Shown here: in pieces, positions 372-11,292 of the stretch
Numbering within the stretch: position 1 is the stretch's first letter
How the letters are laid out: each line of letters starts with the position of its first letter
Source: a virus
Virus record (IMG/VR): IMGVR_UViG_3300048839_001047
Location: 1 to 26,768 of that record
Direction: 5' to 3' (one strand)
Length of the DNA: 26,768 nucleotides
Position numbers and translations under genes: made by a program
Notes under the pieces: generated by a model
What the model was told of the DNA's origin: nothing
Databases searched by the model: none
Seen by the model: only the letters and a program-made list of their open reading frames with translations

Positions 372-1140
372 TAAAGAGCTGCAAACACTGGATCAAAAAA
401 CAGTCGATTTCTACGGCGACGAATTGGCGGCGGCCCGCCTTGATGACGGCCGTATCTACGCCAGTCTGCGGCATATGTGCCAGGCGCTAGATATTGACAC
501 AACAGGCCAGCGGCAGCGGATCAACCGGCACAAGGTTCTCAATTCGGGGCTAGGGGTTTGCAAATTACAAACCCCTGGGGGATTGCAAGATTCTTACGTG
601 CTGCGCGTCGATCTGGTTCCGCTATGGTTGACTGGCATCCGTACAAGCGCAGTCAATGAGACAGTCCGACCGAAACTGGAAAAGTTTCAGGAAGAGGCGG
701 CTGCCGTTTTATGGGAGGCGTTCCAAGAAGGGCGACTAACTGCCGATACATCATTTGATGATCTGCTGGCCAGCGACAGCCCGACAGCCCAAGCCTACAG
801 AATGGCTCAAGCGGTGATGACACTGGCACGGCAGCAGCTCCTAATTGAAAGCCGCGTCGTCAACGTGGAAGGTCGCTTGGAGTTGATCGAAGCGCAGCTG
901 GGCGCCTCAGATCGGTTTGTTACCGAGGACCAGGCCAGCCAGATCAGCCAAGCCGTGAAAGCGGTGGCAATGGTTCTGAGCAAGGCCAGCGGCACGAATC
1001 AATACGGATCAGTGTATGGCGAGCTGTATCGGAAGTTTGGCATCACCTCATACAAGCAGCTCCCGGCCGCAAGGTTCGAGGAAGCAATGGCATTTCTTAC
1101 AGAGTGGCATCAAGGGCTGGTTGGTGAAGAACAGTTTTGA
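364..1140 (+). CDS. Phage antirepressor (P22_AR_N plus ORF6C-like C-terminal domain)
   Basis: This 258-residue protein begins with a P22 antirepressor N-terminal domain: VDFYGDELAAARLDDGRIYA, then the QRQRINRH motif, a TPGG hairpin (about residue 70) and RVDLVPLWLTGIRT. The C-terminal third (residues ~175-250), with YGSVYGELYRKFGITSYKQL and EAMAFLTEW, matches the ORF6C pattern found in phage antirepressors. Such proteins bind and inactivate phage repressors or act as DNA-binding lysis/lysogeny switches. It overlaps the upstream methyltransferase tail by 8 bases. A 9-bp inverted repeat with a 7-base loop (552-576) lies in the region encoding the TPGG hairpin. The family call is firm; the target repressor is not visible here. 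Confidence 0.85.
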   Translation: MADKELQTLDQKTVDFYGDELAAARLDDGRIYASLRHMCQALDIDTTGQRQRINRHKVLNSGLGVCKLQTPGGLQDSYVLRVDLVPLWLTGIRTSAVNETVRPKLEKFQEEAAAVLWEAFQEGRLTADTSFDDLLASDSPTAQAYRMAQAVMTLARQQLLIESRVVNVEGRLELIEAQLGASDRFVTEDQASQISQAVKAVAMVLSKASGTNQYGSVYGELYRKFGITSYKQLPAARFEEAMAFLTEWHQGLVGEEQF

Positions 1141-1321
1141 AAGGGCTTGCGATCCAAGCAAAGTGGCCGTACAACGTAATGCTGTACGCCACAACAGGCG
1201 GCAGCAGGTTCTATAAGGCGCGGGCTGTTTTGGAGCAGCTTGCGTCACGTTGCAGGTGTCATAATTTCAGGCGACGGCCGGTTGCACAGTACGGCCGTCA
1301 CATAAGGAGGAAACAAGTTAA

Positions 1322-2164
1322 GTGAAGAGACGTAATTTGATCATTGGTGCTGTTGGGTTGCTTGTCCTGTGCTTTGTTGTGAGCGCCATTATAGGCGCAG
1401 TGCGAATGAGCACGCCGGAGGGCCAGGCGGCGGCCACGGCCGAAACAGTGGCAAAGGCCGCAGAGGAAGTGGAGCGCACAGCAACAGCAGCCGCAAAAGC
1501 CACCGAGAAGGCACGGCCAACCGACACGCCAGCGCCAACGAATACACCCGCCCCAACCGATACGCCCGCCCCTACGAACACCCCTGCCCCAACAGACACG
1601 CCGCAGCCCACGCTGACGCCAACGCCGCTGCCTGAGCCGATCATGTACAGCGGTTCAGGCGACGACATCATTGACGTTGAAAAGCCGCCCGGCCTCACCA
1701 TCGCCCACATCACCGGCAACGCTGCCTCACGCCACTTTGCTGTCACATCGCTCGACAGTGAGGGCAACACGCTTGAGCTGCTGGCCAACACTACCGAACC
1801 ATACGACGGGACGCGGCCGCTGGATTTCCTCGCAGGCCAGAACACAACACGCTTTGAAGTTGCCGCAACCGGAGACTGGACAATTGAGATTCTGCCCTTG
1901 CCAATGGCTGATGTGATTGATGTGCCCGGCTCGTTTGCGGGGAATGGGGATCGCGTGCTTATCCTCGGCGCTGGCGTGCCGGATACTGCGCACATCGTTG
2001 GCAACGCGGCTGGGAGACACTTTGCGGTGCTCGGATATGGTCCATCTTTTCCAGACTTACTAGTCAACACGACAGAGCCATACGACGGCCGTGTTATTGT
2101 CCGTGGCGACACGCTTGTGCTTGAAGTCGTCGCCGCCGATGAATGGACGATTGATTTTGAGTAA
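1322..2164 (+). CDS. Membrane-anchored exported protein with Thr/Pro/Ala linker and two repeated beta-type domains
   Basis: The start is GTG at 1322, supported by a strong AAGGAGG at 1304-1310. Residues ~5-26 form one hydrophobic segment (LIIGAVGLLVLCFVVSAII), preceded by positive residues, so the rest should face outside. Residues ~35-62 are an Ala-rich helix; residues ~64-103 are a low-complexity T-P-A-P-T-(D/N) linker like those common in exported Chloroflexota proteins. After it come two diverged copies of one ~75-residue domain. Each contains a H-I-x-G-N-A-A-x-R-H-F-A-V core, an NTTEPYDG motif and an end in W-T-I-(E/D). No enzyme motif was seen; surface binding or a lysogenic-conversion cargo gene is possible. 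A terminator follows directly. Confidence 0.8.
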   Translation: MKRRNLIIGAVGLLVLCFVVSAIIGAVRMSTPEGQAAATAETVAKAAEEVERTATAAAKATEKARPTDTPAPTNTPAPTDTPAPTNTPAPTDTPQPTLTPTPLPEPIMYSGSGDDIIDVEKPPGLTIAHITGNAASRHFAVTSLDSEGNTLELLANTTEPYDGTRPLDFLAGQNTTRFEVAATGDWTIEILPLPMADVIDVPGSFAGNGDRVLILGAGVPDTAHIVGNAAGRHFAVLGYGPSFPDLLVNTTEPYDGRVIVRGDTLVLEVVAADEWTIDFE

Positions 2165-2234
2165 GTGCGGTCTGGGCGCGATCACCGAAAGTATGTAGCA
2201 GTTTCACCGTCTCGATTTCCAACAGGAAACAAAA

Positions 2235-2265
2235 AAGCCGCTTCGTTTGAAGCGGCTTCTTTGCT
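2235..2265 (+). terminator. Rho-independent terminator after the exported-protein gene
   Basis: A perfect 10-bp stem (AAGCCGCTTC at 2235-2244 with GAAGCGGCTT at 2249-2258) has a GTTT loop, an A-run upstream and a T-rich tail (CTTTG). It sits 70 bases after the stop of the exported-protein gene. The A-run also lets it work from the minus strand, where the zinc-ribbon gene ends at 2360. Confidence 0.85.
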
Positions 2266-2359
2266 TTGGAGGGTGGAGACTCAAATGCAAGACCAATCTT
2301 AGCAGTCGTTTGTACCTATTCAACCATCTCGCGGCAGCACGGCCGTATCCTCCACCGGC

Positions 2360-2602
2360 CTAAAAAATAGGTTCGCGGCAGTACTGGCAACGGCCGTCAC
2401 GCGGCAGCTCTACGCGCCAGTTGCCGCAATCGGGACAGACGCACCACCGCGCCGCCGAGCCGACGCGCTGCTGAGTCGCGGCGCAGACGGCCAGCCAGAA
2501 GACGGCCGTGGGCGGGGCGTCTCCGTTTCCGGCCGCTCTCCCCTTCCCTGCACCGGTTCCTGCGCGTACGGCCGTGCCGGTGGTGTGCTCGATTTGGATC
2601 AT
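2360..2602 (-). CDS. Small zinc-ribbon protein
   Basis: This 80-residue minus-strand frame ends in a clear four-cysteine ribbon, C-P-D-C-G then C-Q-Y-C, with 12 residues between the pairs (residues ~56-76). The N-terminal half is Ala/Gly-rich and featureless. A purine-rich GAGGGGGAAGG stretch lies directly before the ATG and can serve as a ribosome binding site. Four ACGGCCGT octamers fall inside it. Short zinc ribbons of this type are usual in phages as accessory nucleic-acid-binding proteins. The cysteine pattern is the only positive evidence that this frame is real; codon-level support is modest. Confidence 0.5.
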   Translation of the reverse strand: MIQIEHTTGTAVRAGTGAGKGRAAGNGDAPPTAVFWLAVCAATQQRVGSAARWCVCPDCGNWRVELPRDGRCQYCREPIF

Positions 2603-2673
2603 CCTTCCCCCTCACCCTCTGGTTGTTCTGTTTTTACTTTCGCCCCCTGAGTCATCGATTAACTTGGAGAAAG

Positions 2674-2706
2674 AAAAAGGCCGGTACGTCTTGCCCGGCT
2701 TTTTTC
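2674..2706 (-). terminator. Hairpin terminator downstream of the HNH cassette (possibly bidirectional)
   Basis: AAAAAGGCCGG (2674-2684) faces CCGGCTTTTTT (2695-2705) across a 10-base loop, so both strands have a GC stem followed by a T-run. The sixth pair is G-U read on the plus strand but A-C on the minus strand. The only nearby upstream transcription is the minus-strand HNH/187-aa unit ending at 2968, so the minus strand is the likely user. It also insulates the zinc-ribbon gene. Confidence 0.7.
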
Positions 2707-2753
2707 TTTCCCATATCTCACCTTGCCTTACTCCGCCTTGTAATATATCCCTG

Positions 2754-2823
2754 CCGCGCCGAGCCGAGCCGCGCCCGACCTGACCTAACCTTACCGCGCC
2801 GAGCCGTACCGTACCGGACCATG
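2754..2823. repeat. Period-5 (CCNNN) array A
   Basis: Fourteen consecutive pentamers start with CC in strict 5-base phase, for example CCGCG, CCGAG, CCTGA, CCTAA, CCTTA, CCGTA, ending with CCATG. The three other positions vary, so it is not a simple microsatellite. It does not code in this phase and lies 3' of the minus-strand HNH/187-aa genes. A shorter out-of-phase run (CCTTG CCTTA CTCCG CCTTG) precedes it at 2721-2740. Confidence 0.8.
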
Positions 2824-2827
2824 AGTT

Positions 2828-2854
2828 TAATGGTAGCCGAAATGGCTACCATTA
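2828..2854. other. 11-bp hairpin between the two period-5 arrays
   Basis: AATGGTAGCC (2829-2838) pairs perfectly with GGCTACCATT (2844-2853) around GAAAT, and one more T-A pair closes at 2828/2854. Neither side has a T-run, so it is a weak terminator candidate at best; it could be an RNA processing or protein-binding site. Confidence 0.6.
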
Positions 2855-2856
2855 CA

Positions 2857-2926
2857 CCAAGCCACGCCACACTGCACCGCACCTTGCCTTGCCTATCCCA
2901 GTCTAGCCGCGTCGCGCCGCTCCATG
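2857..2926. repeat. Period-5 (CCNNN) array B
   Basis: A second run of fourteen pentamers, the same count as array A and also ending in CCATG. Eleven of them begin with CC (CCAAG, CCACG, CCACA, CCGCA, CCTTG twice, CCTAT, CCCAG, CCGCG, CCGCT, CCATG); the exceptions are CTGCA, TCTAG and TCGCG. It ends 42 bases from the stop of the 187-residue protein gene. Confidence 0.75.
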
Positions 2927-2967
2927 AATTTAAATGGGGCAGCAAAATTGACTACCCGATTCACAAA

Positions 2968-3531
2968 CTACGCCACCACCTCGAACCGCCCAAACTGCGG
3001 ACGCCAGTCACCCAGGCCAATAATACTGCCTGCGATCTCGAACCATTCGTCCAGTTGGCGCTCGTTCACAAGCTCATCATCATACGTTACCTTGACTTTT
3101 GCCTGCCATTCCTCGAAAATGGGGTGTGTTCGTGCTACTCTAGCGCGTCCAACCACTACAATGGCCCGGTGACGAAACGATTCCTCTTCCCAAAGTGCAT
3201 CGGCGTCTGTCGGGCCATTGTATTCCAGTACAGCATTATTGAGGATGAACACCCCCGCTTCCGCTTGCTTCCCCTCCTTGCGCTTCCGAGCCGCACGGAT
3301 CAACATGCCGCGCACGTTTTGCGGCGGAATCACCGGGCCTGACTTGCCCATGTACAGGCCGCCCAAGAACTCAAGCCGTGCCATTTCTTCGTAATCCGCA
3401 TCAGTCTTGGCTCGCTTCCCGGAGGTAGCTTTCATAGCTTTTGCGAACACGTTGGCCGGATCGGCCATTTGGCCGTTGTGCATCAACATCGGGCACACTG
3501 ATTTCAATGTGTACTCTTTTTCTTTCAACAT
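2968..3531 (-). CDS. Conserved phage-type hypothetical protein, 187 aa, partner of the HNH gene
   Basis: ATG at 3531 has a good AAGGAGAG ribosome binding site 7 bases upstream, which fixes the start even though it lies inside the HNH frame. The pattern is TLKSVCPMLMHN near the N-terminus, a GKRAKTDADYEE region, PPQNVRGMLIRAARK, and a C-terminal (R)THPIFEEWQAKVKV then IGLGDWRPQFGRFEV. From memory this resembles a family of unnamed proteins recurrent in phage and metagenomic contigs; the alternating beta-strands and the glycine/arginine-rich C-terminus are loosely reminiscent of RAMP-like folds, but I cannot show that. No catalytic motif was identified. It is translated from the same leader transcript as the HNH gene and ends near array B. 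Confidence 0.8.
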   Translation of the reverse strand: MLKEKEYTLKSVCPMLMHNGQMADPANVFAKAMKATSGKRAKTDADYEEMARLEFLGGLYMGKSGPVIPPQNVRGMLIRAARKRKEGKQAEAGVFILNNAVLEYNGPTDADALWEEESFRHRAIVVVGRARVARTHPIFEEWQAKVKVTYDDELVNERQLDEWFEIAGSIIGLGDWRPQFGRFEVVA

Positions 3532-3808
3532 GATTTAACTCTCCTTCAGGCTCGATTGCCTTTACCTTGTATTGACGCTGGCTGTAACGTCGCCCGCGAA
3601 TTACGTTCGTGATTGCCTTGTGGCACTCCGCGCAAAGGGTGATCAAGTCTTCCATAGGCTCATCTCCGAAATGTTCATAACTGACATGATGGCATTCTAG
3701 CTGCTCTGTGCCGCCACATGTGCGACAGCGGCTTTTGTCCATCATCCTGCGCTCTTCTCGTTTCCGATACCACTCGGCGCTGCTAATGTACTTGCTGTAA
3801 CCTTTCAT
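3401..3808 (-). CDS. HNH endonuclease
   Basis: Residues ~5-65 form a compact HNH domain: EWYRKREERRMMDKSRC, C-x2-C-G (CRTCGG), LECHHVSYEHFGDEP, LITLCAECHKAI. The two Cys pairs make a zinc knuckle, the HH pair supplies the catalytic histidine and the last His completes the motif. The family nicks or cuts DNA and includes phage packaging nucleases and homing enzymes; this copy lies far from the terminase genes, so homing or defence is as likely as packaging. No good ribosome binding site is adjacent to the ATG; GAGGTGA lies 16 bases away, with a two-codon frame (ATG GAT TGA) in between. The C-terminal ~43 codons overlap the next gene by 131 bases, which is unusually long. Confidence 0.85.
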   Translation of the reverse strand: MKGYSKYISSAEWYRKREERRMMDKSRCRTCGGTEQLECHHVSYEHFGDEPMEDLITLCAECHKAITNVIRGRRYSQRQYKVKAIEPEGELNHVERKRVHIEISVPDVDAQRPNGRSGQRVRKSYESYLREASQD

Positions 3809-3842
3809 CGTTTCAATCCATTGTCACCTCAATTTTTACTAT

Positions 3843-3907
3843 CCTTGCCCAGGCAAGCCACGCCGGGCCTTGCCCAGCATCGCCCCGTCAGGCCTCACCC
3901 CGCCTTG
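3843..3907. repeat. Period-5 (CCNNN) array C
   Basis: Thirteen pentamers in phase (CCTTG, CCCAG, GCAAG, CCACG, CCGGG, CCTTG, CCCAG, CATCG, CCCCG, TCAGG, CCTCA, CCCCG, CCTTG), ten beginning CC. It lies in the leader between the structured RNA and the HNH start, so it is transcribed on the minus strand as a G-rich NNNGG series. With arrays A and B it brackets the two-gene cassette. Confidence 0.65.
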
Positions 3908-3912
3908 AACGT

Positions 3913-4053
3913 AAAACAGCCACCCTTTACTTCGTAAGTTGTTGAGGCCTACGGCGGTGGTCCCGCTCAAGCAAAGGGTGGCTGTTTTGCCACGAAGTAT
4001 TAAGTTTTCATTCAGCGGGTACAAAAACACCACCGCATTCCGTAAGCCTCAAC
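3913..4053 (-). ncRNA. Structured leader or small RNA with long hairpin and potential 16-bp pseudoknot
   Basis: Read on the minus strand from 4053, GTTGAGGCTTACGG (4053-4040) pairs with CCGTAGGCCTCAAC (3954-3941), with one U-G wobble that would be an A-C mismatch on the plus strand. The helix continues past one-sided bulges with CGGTGGT/ACCACCG (4035-4029 with 3961-3955) and CCCGCT/AGCGGG (4019-4014 with 3967-3962). The apical loop holds AAAACAGCCACCCTTT (3988-3973), which is perfectly complementary to AAAGGGTGGCTGTTTT (3928-3913) just 3' of the main helix, giving an H-type pseudoknot. The loop can alternatively fold a GTGGC/GCCAC hairpin (3993-3978). The 3' arm ends in UUUU, so it might also act as a terminator. 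The predicted +1 coincides with the first base of the helix. No known RNA family was recognised. Confidence 0.6.
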
Positions 4054-4060
4054 AAAAATA

Positions 4061-4088
4061 ATTATAGCACGGCCGTTCCAGTAGTCAA
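4061..4088 (-). promoter_or_regulatory. Near-consensus sigma70-type promoter of the structured RNA / HNH unit
   Basis: On the minus strand TTGACT (4088-4083), a 16-base spacer and a perfect TATAAT (4066-4061) are followed 7 bases later by G at 4053, the first base of the long helix. The spacer contains an ACGGCCGT octamer. This is one of the best promoter matches in the window. Confidence 0.8.
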
Positions 4089-4155
4089 CAACCAAACCGC
4101 ATGATATTAATGATCGCATCTCCACAGTTAATCAATCAACTTAACTCTGGAAAGC

Positions 4156-4187
4156 AAAAGGCCCAACCGGTGATGGTTGGGCCTTTT
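4156..4187. terminator. Strong bidirectional terminator
   Basis: A perfect 13-bp stem (AAAAGGCCCAACC at 4156-4168 with GGTTGGGCCTTTT at 4175-4187) has a 6-base loop and a T-run on both strands. It separates the minus-strand HNH promoter from the repeat-rich stretch and the plus-strand promoter at 4412. Confidence 0.85.
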
Positions 4188-4195
4188 GTATTTCA

Positions 4196-4390
4196 GGCGC
4201 TACGGCCGTCTCCGCCCGCGCTTTTGCCCGCTTTTGTAGCGCTTGCGGTAGCGCTTCAAGGGCGCTTCTGCTCTCTGTAGCGGCCGCTACAGGCCGCTTC
4301 ACATGCGCTTCAGGCGCAGCGGTCCGTAGCGGGCCGGAAGCGCCTGCTGTAGCGGGCATTTTCAGGCGCTCCCCCTGCCCTTGCCGGTCC
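4196..4390. repeat. Non-coding stretch of short repeats and palindromes around GTAGCG/GCGCTTCA
   Basis: No convincing gene lies between the terminator and the promoter at 4412. The stretch is built of recurring fragments: GTAGCGCTT (twice), GTAGCGG (three times), TTCAGGCGC (several, one at 4191-4200), GCGCTTC. It contains a perfect 18-bp palindrome CTGTAGCGGCCGCTACAG (4275-4292) and an ACGGCCGT octamer at 4202. A TTG-initiated minus-strand frame spans it but runs through the terminator hairpin and is Ala/Pro-rich, so I read it as non-coding. It may be a protein-binding or structured-RNA region. Confidence 0.5.
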
Positions 4391-4411: not shown

Positions 4412-4439
4412 TTGACATATCATGTATACATGATATACT
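4412..4439 (+). promoter_or_regulatory. Promoter with embedded 20-bp palindromic operator
   Basis: TTGACA (4412-4417), a 16-base spacer and TATACT (4434-4439) form a strong promoter. The spacer is occupied by the perfect palindrome ATATCATGTATACATGATAT (4417-4436), which overlaps both boxes. A dimeric regulator bound there would block polymerase, so this is a probable repressed phage or plasmid promoter. It drives the gene at 4487. Confidence 0.85.
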
Positions 4440-5931: not shown

Positions 5932-6007
5932 TTGCGCCACTCTCTTTTTAAGGGTATTGTATACAACGTTTACAGAGTTACGCCTGTATCCGGCAGAAAC
6001 AGGCGTA
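5932..6007 (+). promoter_or_regulatory. parA promoter/operator region with inverted repeats (possible centromere)
   Basis: TTGCGC (5932-5937), 17 bases, TATTGT (5955-5960) is a moderate promoter. The palindrome TTGTATACAA (5957-5966) overlaps its -10 box and shares the GTATAC core with the operators at 4417 and 7198. Further on, TACGCCTGT (5979-5987) and ACAGGCGTA (5999-6007) form a 9-bp inverted repeat before the parA ribosome site. In type Ib partition systems the operator and centromere lie upstream of parA, so this stretch is the natural candidate for both. Confidence 0.6.
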
Positions 6008-6034
6008 GACAATGCACATAATAGGGAGATACCT

Positions 6035-6841
6035 ATGGCGAAAATCTACGCAGTAATGAACAGAAAAGGCGGCACCGGCAAGACGACGACGGCGATTGCG
6101 TTGGCGCAAGGGCTGGCCCGCCGCCGCTACGAGGAAGGATACACCGGTGATACGGCCGTGCTGCTGGTGGACCTTGACCCGCAAGGGCACGTTGCCGGTT
6201 CGCTCGACCTGGACACCGGCGGCCGCTGCCTGAGCCAGTTCTTTCTTGACCGATCCAACTATGGGCGCGTGCTTATGCGCGCCGCCAACGAAAGCCATGC
6301 GCGGCGTGGCATGTGGGTTGTTCCAGCTACCGATAACTTGACCGAGGCGAAGCGCGCCTTGATTGTGAATGGAAAGATCGACGACGCGCTGGAATGGGCA
6401 CTTGGCGAAACGCGCAAGCTCTTTGAGTACATCGTGCTCGATTGCCCGCCGACGCTGGACTTCCTTCAGACGGCCGTCTATCGCTTTGCCGATCTCGCCG
6501 TCGTGCCGGTACGTGCCGACTACCTGTCGCTCAATGGCGCAATGCAGCACACGCGCGACATCGTGGCCGCGCAGCAAGCGGGCAGCAAGATCGCGATCAA
6601 GGCGCTTGTCCCGACCTTCTTCGACACGCGGATCAACCAATGCAGCGCAGTGGTGAGCAGACTAATCGAGGTGTACGGCCGTGACAAGGTGACAGTACCG
6701 ATTCCGAGCACGATCCGCGTGGCCGAAGCACCGGAGTATGGCATGACAGTATTCGAATACGCCGAAAGCCGGAGCAGCGACAACATGGCCCAGATCGCGG
6801 CAATGGCCTACAACAGGGTAGTAGAGAGGGTGATGATATGA
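6035..6841 (+). CDS. parA: ParA-family partition ATPase
   Basis: ATG at 6035 follows GGGAG; the open frame extends 26 codons upstream but without a ribosome site and across the operator. The 268-residue protein starts directly with the deviant Walker A motif KGGTGKTT (residues 11-18), followed by the A' motif VLLVDLDPQG, Walker B-like YIVLDCPP and a VVPVRADYLSLNGAMQ segment. It lacks the N-terminal HTH of large P1-type ParA, so it resembles type Ib (ParF-like) ATPases that segregate plasmids by nucleoid-associated ATP cycling. It overlaps the next gene by four bases (ATGA). The presence of a partition ATPase implies extrachromosomal maintenance. Confidence 0.92.
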   Translation: MAKIYAVMNRKGGTGKTTTAIALAQGLARRRYEEGYTGDTAVLLVDLDPQGHVAGSLDLDTGGRCLSQFFLDRSNYGRVLMRAANESHARRGMWVVPATDNLTEAKRALIVNGKIDDALEWALGETRKLFEYIVLDCPPTLDFLQTAVYRFADLAVVPVRADYLSLNGAMQHTRDIVAAQQAGSKIAIKALVPTFFDTRINQCSAVVSRLIEVYGRDKVTVPIPSTIRVAEAPEYGMTVFEYAESRSSDNMAQIAAMAYNRVVERVMI

Positions 6842-7161: not shown

Positions 7162-7190
7162 CCCAGCCACATCCGCGATCCCGTCCCTGA

Positions 7191-7220
7191 TTGACAGATC
7201 GTGTATACATGATTTACAAT
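7191..7220 (+). promoter_or_regulatory. Second promoter with near-identical operator
   Basis: TTGACA (7191-7196) and TACAAT (7215-7220), 18 bases apart, flank ATCGTGTATACATGAT (7198-7213). This differs by one base from the core of the operator at 4419-4434 and occupies the same position between the boxes. The two promoters are therefore probably controlled by one dimeric regulator. It drives the gene at 7240. Four pentamers of CCNNN type (CCTAA CCCAG CCACA TCCGC) occur just upstream. Confidence 0.8.
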
Positions 7221-9365: not shown

Positions 9366-10373
9366 ATGGATACGGCAACGGTCAAGAGCATTGAAGACGT
9401 TTGGCAGGATACGCTTAATGAATTGAAGCTACAGATGACGCGGGCGACGTTCGACCAGTGGCTCGCGTCATCTACGGCCGTCCAGTTGTGGGGCAATGAG
9501 CTTACCATTACTGTCGTCAACGAAATGGCGCAGGACTGGCTCATGCACCGGCTGCGGGACACGATAGAGCGCACGCTGAGCGCAGTAGCGGGGGAGGCTA
9601 TGACAATCAAGATCGTTACCAGAAGTGATGTGGAGCAGGAGGCGCTCTTGCGCATGCCGCCGGTGGCTACGGTGGTTTATGACGCGACGCTGACAAGGCA
9701 TCAGCCACCGCCGCCGCCCGCGCCGAACGATCCGGCGGTGTACGGCCGTTCGGACGCGGAGCTGCGCGCAAGCATAGAGGCGCGCAGGAACGCGGGTATG
9801 AATGGCAGCCAGAGCGGACATCTGAATGGCAGCGGCAAGGGCCACCAAATCGAGGATGACGACGAAATAACCATCACGCGCAGCGAAGAGGGTGATCCAG
9901 ACGCAGCCTTTATGCAGATCGGGCATTACGCGGTTCGGTTCTGGCGGCCGTATCTGGGGCGCACGGCATTTGATTTGTGGGAGGTGCTTACCACCTACCA
10001 GTACGGCATGGAAAACTGGAAAGAGAAAGCGCCGCACAACTCGACCCTTCTGCGCAAGATAGGAATCCAGAATCGGCAATCGCTGGAAGAGGCGATCATC
10101 GACTTGGAACGTGAAGGTATTTTTAGCTTCCGGCGCGAGATGAAAGACGACGATCCACGTACCGCGAAATGCTACTATGACGATTTCAAGCCGCTGGATG
10201 TTCGCTATGGCGGCGGCCGGCTGCTGAGCTATGAGCAGCACCTGCGCCTGACGCCCCCGGACCAGAAAGAGCACATTCGTTATCTGAAGAAGTACGTCAA
10301 GAAAGGCCGGTTCGACATGCGGGCCTGGCGCAGCGGCGCGCCGCGCAGCCAGTGGTTGATCGAGCGTGAATAG
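9366..10373 (+). CDS. Replication initiator with DnaA-type N-terminal domain
   Basis: ATG at 9366 follows TTAGGAGAATTGTAGC. Residues ~8-80 match the DnaA N-terminal domain (W-x3-L-x-E-L-K-L-Q-M-T-R-A-T-F-D-Q-W, then an ELTITVVNEMAQDWL strand-helix and a RLRDTIERTL helix), which in DnaA recruits helicase and other partners. A ~95-residue Pro/Gly/Asn-rich linker follows. Residues ~180-335 contain a winged-helix-like block (FWRPYLGRTAFDLWEVLTTY, then NRQSLEEAIIDLEREGIFSF) and a basic C-terminus. The AAA+ module of DnaA is absent. Four iterons lie directly downstream, so this is probably the plasmid-type Rep that binds them. The mosaic is inferred from patterns. Confidence 0.75.
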   Translation: MDTATVKSIEDVWQDTLNELKLQMTRATFDQWLASSTAVQLWGNELTITVVNEMAQDWLMHRLRDTIERTLSAVAGEAMTIKIVTRSDVEQEALLRMPPVATVVYDATLTRHQPPPPPAPNDPAVYGRSDAELRASIEARRNAGMNGSQSGHLNGSGKGHQIEDDDEITITRSEEGDPDAAFMQIGHYAVRFWRPYLGRTAFDLWEVLTTYQYGMENWKEKAPHNSTLLRKIGIQNRQSLEEAIIDLEREGIFSFRREMKDDDPRTAKCYYDDFKPLDVRYGGGRLLSYEQHLRLTPPDQKEHIRYLKKYVKKGRFDMRAWRSGAPRSQWLIERE

Positions 10374-10638: not shown

Positions 10639-11292
10639 ATGACAGCGACGACGACACAAGCAGACAAGCCCGAACATGCGGCGGCGATCCACCCGCTTGC
10701 AAACCATACGGCCGTGTTGCATAATGCGCTCATGGATCTGTCCGAACTTTACGGAGCCAGAGACGCGGCCGATTATGCGGGCGTGAGTTTGCCGACGCTG
10801 CGCCATGCGGTTCAGGGAGGGACGCTGGAACCGATAGCCCTGAGCCAGCGCGTCTATGCCGACGGCCGTGTCTACCCGTATGGCTTCGTGTTCACGCGGC
10901 GGATGCTGGACGCCTGGCGCGCCGACGGCCGTGCCGCGCCGACCGAAGACGAGCGGCGGCAGGTGTTCAACAGCGCCGGAGCCGCCGAGTATCTGGGCAT
11001 TTCGGTGGATGCGCTGAAGCAGGCGTATCATGTGCGCGGCTCGTTGGCGGGCCGGAACATCGGCGGGGCGGTTGTATTCCTGCTGCGCGATCTAATCGCC
11101 TACAGCGAACGCGAACGGCCGTCCGGGCCGGAGCATCCGCGCGCGCTGTTCAGCGCCGAGCAAGTGCGCGAGATGCGTGAGCTGTACGAAAGTGGCGTGA
11201 CCATCCGCGAGATCGCCAACCGCATGGACCTCGACGCCGACCTCACCACGATCCACGGCGTTGTATACGGCCGGACGTACCGCAACGTTTAG
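10639..11292 (+). CDS. DNA-binding protein with several helix-turn-helix segments
   Basis: The 217-residue product carries three segments that look like helix-turn-helix motifs: ARDAADYAGVSLPTLRHAV (residues ~40-60) and SAGAAEYLGISVDALKQAY (~113-133), both of excisionase/MerR-like type, and EMRELYESGVTIREIANRM near the C-terminus. The first two are paralogous and each is followed by a YGFVFTRRMLDAW- or VVFLLRDLIAYSE-type strand, as in excisionase-type proteins that recognise a residue pair per domain. ATG 10639 is preceded by a weak AGGCGAGG. It is the first gene after the origin and may regulate replication or the early operon. Four ACGGCCGT octamers lie within it. Confidence 0.7.
   Translation: MTATTTQADKPEHAAAIHPLANHTAVLHNALMDLSELYGARDAADYAGVSLPTLRHAVQGGTLEPIALSQRVYADGRVYPYGFVFTRRMLDAWRADGRAAPTEDERRQVFNSAGAAEYLGISVDALKQAYHVRGSLAGRNIGGAVVFLLRDLIAYSERERPSGPEHPRALFSAEQVREMRELYESGVTIREIANRMDLDADLTTIHGVVYGRTYRNV

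Follow-up and report, generated by a model that had tools for sequence, protein, structure and literature searches.

The DNA analysed here is a 26,768-nucleotide stretch of viral record IMGVR_UViG_3300048839_001047 (the window), and its minus strand carries an operon ordered leader, guide array, HNH accessory gene, vipr, and further guide arrays. VIPR (Viral Interference Programmable Repeat), reported in 2026 as a possible forerunner of CRISPR, is described in the main text of the preprint as comprising Vipr proteins, an accessory gene, and guide RNAs of 9–16 GGY/NN repeats, with guides and mechanism known (PMC13142463). The 187-aa product of the putative vipr gene (2968..3531) has a single phmmer match among PDB sequences, 36pp, ‘SUSP1 Vipr protein’ (E=1.1e-23), matches phrog_4652 at 2e-46, and has a predicted fold (pLDDT 83.9) that resembles Csm-type RAMP chains, the top PDB matches of the model being chains of Csm/Cmr complexes with E from 1e-4 and a TM of ~0.45. 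Its start is overlapped by a 135-aa HNH gene (3401..3808; Pfam HNH, 2.3e-5), likely the vipr accessory gene, to which no numbered vap or type could be assigned from the preprint main text (PMC13142463); the two reading frames share 131 nt (3401-3531), and comparable overlap is seen in L003, L004, L005, L008, and L228. A repeat scan finds three GGYNN arrays on the vipr strand, a vrRNA1-like guide array of 13 units (3840..3904), a vrRNA2-like array of 14 (2854..2923), and a vrRNA3-like array of 15 (2746..2820), and an inverted-repeat search places a terminator-like hairpin 3’ of the last one (2669..2710). The same scan finds arrays in 85 of 88 related Vipr loci (all except L153, L188, and L208) versus 0 of 238 control locus-strands. 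As judged from sequence, the HNH/187-aa unit is a VIPR system, like those of the preprint main text (PMC13142463) in having a Vipr RAMP protein, a small accessory gene, GGYNN arrays both up- and downstream, and a phage-borne location. The original prediction named the unit, and neither its identity as VIPR nor the guide-RNA array as the first thing downstream of the leader was part of it.

Other features of the locus may be noted. Under a 1-nt skip rule, no guide target in the virus itself or in the loci examined has more than eight matching dinucleotides of 14–16, and a 20-base vrRNA1 pattern has 0 exact matches in viral contigs. At the place expected for the vrRNA1 tail, just 5’ of the HNH start, a stretch ending GGATTGAAAC (3810-3839) matches CRISPR-DR9 weakly (E=10), and we take this CRISPR-like repeat as chance. 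The virus is probably a phage-plasmid, because ParA and a DnaA N-terminal-domain protein (5957-6841 and 9366-10373) occur together with terminase and portal genes. A near-identical record (G001, 70,608 bp), whose ends overlap window 11116-11266, is without exactly 1101-3753 (the whole of vipr and the arrays beyond it, the larger part of HNH, and the terminal part of an antirepressor-like gene) and retains the leader and vrRNA1 (locus L012); the absence is either a real deletion or an assembly variant.

The leader occupies the interval between the operon promoter and the first guide array, with all elements on the minus strand. The promoter (4061..4088) is the TTGACT/TATAAT pair originally noted, with a 16-nt spacer, a TG before the -10 hexamer, and 11 of 12 consensus matches, and it is insulated by an upstream bidirectional terminator-like hairpin (4147..4196; 22-nt arms, 6-nt loop, 86% complementary, AAAA/TTTT flanks). 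Inverted-repeat search defines two long helices. The 5’ arm of helix A (TTGTTGAGGCTTACGG, 4040..4055) starts 5 nt past the -10 hexamer, at the expected +1, and pairs with CCGTAGGCCTCAACAA at 3954-3939 over 16 pairs including one U-G. Sequence reading and folding add a continuation at 4014..4036 (GCGGTGGT, a U-rich insert, and CCCGCT), whose partners AGCGGG and ACCACCGC precede CCGTAGGCCTCAACAA in the A’ arm (3939..3968), and the two additional pairings, GCGGTGGT/ACCACCGC and CCCGCT/AGCGGG, complete the interrupted 14+7+6-bp helix that had been proposed; segment 4014..4036 is also predicted to fold as a local hairpin with a U-rich loop. Helix C begins within the A-A’ loop (AAAACAGCCACCCTTTGCTT, 3969..3988), and its 3’ arm (AAGTAAAGGGTGGCTGTTTT, 3913..3932; also recovered by folding) forms the 3’ half of a terminator-like stem, ends in TTTT, and is followed directly by the array at 3904-3840. 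The C/C’ complementarity, previously described as 16 perfect base pairs between loop and 3’ flank, extends to 20 nt through a G-U and three more pairs. By sequence reading there is a third, 7-bp complementarity between ACTTCGT (B, 3992..3998) and ACGAAGT (B’, 3929..3935), the latter overlapping the first C’ bases; this is at chance level in the window sequence and we discard it as evidence there, although comparable B/B’ pairs occur in several related leaders.

The predicted structure is well beyond what shuffled sequence yields. The leader fold has a z-score of -4.4 with 0 of 200 shuffles as stable, the interlocked helices score -31.3 and -37.2 kcal/mol in stacking, and dinucleotide shuffling of the 281-nt region never matches the interlocked pair in 1000 trials, the best shuffled weaker helix reaching -22.3. 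The case for the minus strand as the RNA is slightly stronger than the single U-G wobble first cited, as there are two wobbles, one per helix, each G-U on the minus strand and A-C on the plus strand. Consistent with the earlier view that no known riboswitch or ribozyme is present, the window has 0 Rfam matches at or above gathering score (three sub-threshold matches fall in 3780-4110), and HEARO/omega RNA, riboswitches, ribozymes, and C4 RNA are rejected on this basis. Neither a conserved ligand pocket nor a leader peptide came to light; the candidate peptide AUG CGG UGG UGU UUU UGU ACC CGC UGA within A was dropped, having no counterpart in L150. At 4200-4370, beside the leader, are dense TGTAGCG- and GCGCTTC-type short repeats with an iteron-like look. 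Further on, a near-perfect palindrome, TATCATGTATACATGATA (4417-4436), overlaps a plus-strand TTGACA/TATACT promoter and has an 89% similar copy at 7190-7217, and from their sequences the two look like a repressor operator pair.

Related leaders are found at other Vipr loci. The relatives comprised the best 80 of 150 from viral contigs and 8 from genome contigs (88 loci, 531,173 bases), and the controls were 119 random loci from a first pattern scan (1,072,938 bases), with both strands scanned. Scanning by helix energy alone (interlocked pairs summing to -55 or lower, the weaker helix at -20 or lower, both strands, no T-run filter) gives 17 hits in the 88 Vipr loci versus 4 in the 119 control loci, and nine of the 17 mark the start of an operon on its sense strand (L145, L150, L151, L152, L153, L154, L155, L220, and L227). 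Three of the four control hits are a GC-rich interlocked repeat, CGCTGCGTGG / CCCAAGCTTCGCGGCCC, common to L031, L033, and L087. A filtered scan demanded, besides interlocked helices, a -10 hexamer immediately 5’ of A and TTT at C’; it yielded 12 hits across the Vipr loci (1.06 Mb strand-bases) and a single weak one (-36.9) across the controls (2.15 Mb). Ten of the 12 are at operon starts (L150-L155, L162, L163, L173, and L220), and the remaining two are at L173 +3798, 5’ of a ParB-like gene, and at L190 (weak). A looser scan with a cutoff of -34 was too unspecific to use (191 hits in Vipr loci versus 141 in controls). With L145 and L227 counted from the energy scan and inspection, the A-C-A’-C’ topology is present with unrelated stems at the VIPR operon start in 12 of 88 other Vipr loci, representing nine distinct sequences. 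The window leader resembles the mutually alignable leaders of L150, L153, L154, and L241 in topology and promoter spacing, in a U-rich segment following A, and in opening C with an AGCC-type sequence, and differs from them in sequence.

VIPR does not need the leader, as by these criteria it is missing from 76 of the 88 Vipr loci and from all ten VIPR loci of isolated phages and plasmids (chosen for diversity among 136 matching records), every one of which has arrays. In a tree, leaders occur in the clade of the window (98/92) and, outside it, in L162, L163, and L173; L227, which also bears a leader, is not placed, its reading frame being too short. Relatives include one Chloroflexota MAG (L220); a scan of its fetched pieces, 0.55 Mb strand-bases in all, returned a single weak hit. 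When viral contigs were scanned with a 23-base motif built from three leaders, seven stretches were recovered, all at VIPR loci, six on contigs already known and one at a new VIPR locus (L228) with the same leader. DNA homology searches of phages and plasmids brought up no useful match to the element, and the exact C/C’ pattern matches no virus but this one among viral contigs and has no match in genome contigs.

The leader is not exclusive to VIPR, because further copies precede HNH, DnaB-like, and ParB-like genes. In the fetched pieces of five leader-bearing viruses (668,830 strand-bases), the virus of the window has one element only, and further leaders occur elsewhere. G005 carries a leader 5’ of a small HNH gene, and G009 has leaders 5’ of a DnaB-like helicase operon (the gene judged from its translation) and of a ParB-like gene; the L173 leader has a duplicate copy before other repeats. 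G006 has a leader 5’ of a second VIPR operon (L241, 17290-18420), in which the leader and GGYNN repeats are followed by a GIY-YIG-like (MUG113/T5orf172) accessory gene in place of HNH, then by a very divergent Vipr (phrog_4652, 1.7e-8), and finally by another array. G007 gives two hits of lower strength (-37.6 and -44.3), which probably arose by chance. A non-VIPR leader, GATCGGGGCTTCTTTTTT (L249), lies 5’ of an operon with a DnaB-like gene and shows the attenuator-like design in textbook form, its A’ overlapping C’.

Absence of covariation in homologous loci had been named in advance as grounds for abandoning the proposed structure, and related leaders do covary, the window copy itself being too divergent to enter the alignment. 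In a MAFFT alignment of L150, L153, and L154, 94% of helix C cells are paired and both bases differ in 9 of 23 pairs, a result matched by 0 of 500 shuffles. Once L241, a later find from the phage that carries L154, is added, helices A and C jointly give 36 pairs with 95.3% of cells paired and 18 pairs changed on both sides; none of 500 shuffles of the four-leader alignment does as well on any measure, and slid partners pair in 37–52%. The alignment is small at four sequences, and deriving the structure from L154 biases the comparison toward the unslid version. Complementary B/B’ segments are UUUUUUCGC/GCGAAAAAA in L150, UUUGCC/GGCAAA in L153, L154, and L241, and GGCGGUUUU/AGAACCGCC in L163.

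These pairings can be read in several ways. The original prediction placed a static 16-bp pseudoknot atop the full 14+7+6-bp helix, and this part does not hold for the window: a 6-nt linker beside a helix of ~27 bp makes it sterically implausible, and the two pairings are therefore better read as alternatives. L173 has no nucleotide between A’ and C’ (helices of 12 pairs) and the window has six (helices of at least 16 pairs); either linker is too short for both helices to stand together, which argues for a reading in which A-A’ closes a loop around C. We modestly favor, on balance, a transcription attenuator of the VIPR operon, with terminator C-C’ and antiterminator A-A’ exclusive by interlocking. 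In such an attenuator A would pair with A’ once A’ emerges during transcription, and the closed A-A’ stem would keep C off C’, such that polymerase continues into the guide array and genes. Should some trigger prevent A-A’ pairing, C-C’ would form an intrinsic terminator just 5’ of the guide array, and only a short RNA of ~145 nt would be made. A’ would sit in the terminator loop, and as the stems share almost no bases, mutual exclusion would arise from the interlocking. The elements, the conserved topology and covariation of related leaders, the predicted order of folding, and the placement between promoter and operon are computed results in favor of this reading; we infer that C-C’ terminates, that A-A’ is the antiterminator, that a trigger exists, and which state is the default; a ribosome, a phage protein, the Vipr/vrRNA complex, and temperature are candidate triggers.

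Several observations bear on the attenuator. The leader lies between promoter and operon, and this structured position behind a promoter supports, as a possibility, the early suggestion of a switch for the HNH/187-aa unit. Mutual exclusivity of the stems in the window follows from a geometric argument, the 6-nt linker combined with near-equal predicted alternatives (-58.9 vs -57.9 kcal/mol in fold prediction without knots). In prefix folding, A-A’ is complete or nearly so when the A’ end is reached in 10 of 11 leaders (not L141), and at the C’ end C-C’ has formed in seven of ten, with A-A’ persisting in L162, L163, and L220; any call of the default state rests on energy models that omit pseudoknots. 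In the closest Vipr relative, L141-143 (68% identical, among the best 80 of 150), a canonical terminator and its seven-T run lie between promoter and guide array, and the L141 terminator loop complements an upstream segment. C’ is a GC-rich arm with three to six T’s in nine of ten distinct VIPR-start leaders, including the window, which partly reflects selection for those found with the TTT filter; in the energy-only scan, TTT ends C’ in six of seven distinct leaders (the window, L150, L153, L154, L220, and L227, and not L145). The window C-C’ is a GC-rich stem with a short U-run, TTTT followed by ACG, and C-C’ is stronger in L163, L173, and L249; L150, L153, and L154 have TTTG or TTTC, and L145 none. 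The U-runs of the window, L150, L153, and L154 are weak relative to intrinsic terminators, and C-C’ escapes a simple terminator scan, as its loop exceeds the length permitted there. Retention of the leader in L012, the variant without most of HNH and all of vipr, also counts against a VIPR attenuator.

In L150, L153, and L154 the linkers are 12–16 nt, so a true pseudoknot could form, and we have considered that helices A, B, and C co-form as a knotted RNA module, either a put-like processive antiterminator or a phage-protein site controlling several operons. The element begins at the expected transcription start, recurs before several operons within the same phages, and has the third crossing pair B/B’ in several copies (L150, L153, L154, L241, and L163), as such a module might. 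However, the 0–6 nt linkers exclude full co-formation in L173 and the window, the U-runs at C’ are left unexplained, and no core sequence is conserved across all copies as put-like recognition would need, and we regard this model as unlikely. A more general idea, which we think rather unlikely, is that the leaders form a new phage RNA class with helices ordered A B C A’ B’ C’, all crossing, as either a real knot or a folding-order ratchet that would block the terminator by topology and not by base competition, timing VIPR and a few other operons together.

Other roles are less probable still. Long duplexes (at least 14 pairs in most copies) could protect the 5’ end or be cut by RNase III to release an adjacent guide RNA, as the leaders of the window, L162, L163, L173, L220, and L227 adjoin GGYNN arrays, but those of L150, L153, and L154 are directly 5’ of protein genes with no intervening array, and the downstream arrays of the window have no such element (one hit in the virus), which renders a processing or stability function improbable. 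Even less do we expect a stand-alone small RNA, ~145 nt long with its 3’ end at C’ and unrelated to the downstream genes: it would account for the dedicated promoter, the upstream terminator, the terminator-like 3’ end, and persistence in the variant lacking vipr, yet related elements stand at operon starts, some ~20 nt or less from the start codon, and the virus genome offers no notable trans target. DNA elements also carry long inverted repeats, and one GC-rich interlocked repeat is common to controls L031, L033, and L087, but the covariation, sense-strand wobbles, promoter placement, and shuffles make a chance structure or DNA-level repeat without an RNA role scarcely credible.

Transcription attenuators include trp-type leaders and the expression platforms of T-boxes and riboswitches, and the window leader is like them in being promoter-proximal with two alternative stems, the later one terminator-like. 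It differs in that the antiterminator partner lies in the terminator loop, giving interlocking instead of competition for the same bases, and in that no ligand or leader peptide was found. The C4 antisense RNA of P1/P7, a regulatory RNA of phages, shares a transcript with its complementary target and lies immediately 5’ of it, and the window element has a similar arrangement; unlike C4, it has no Rfam match, and the antirepressor gene in the window is on the other strand and not 3’ of the element. Put RNA is not known for interlocked long stems. HK022 put is likewise a phage RNA of early transcripts that affects termination (PMC9378689). The parts of the literature seen on interlocked attenuators and put RNA contain nothing alike, which does not prove the element unpublished. 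In the VIPR preprint main text, guide RNAs consist of repeats with a 3’ tail that in the SUSP1 clade has a pseudoknot, whereas the window element is 5’ of the repeats, and the words ‘terminator’, ‘leader’, ‘attenuat’, and ‘riboswitch’ do not occur there (PMC13142463).

The main text of that preprint gives no account of how VIPR operons are switched, and the leader is a concrete, covarying RNA element at the operon start. Because all seven stretches matching the 23-base motif are at VIPR loci, the motif is usable for finding further ones. The leader can be assayed in vitro, and its design is one of two stems made exclusive by interlocking.
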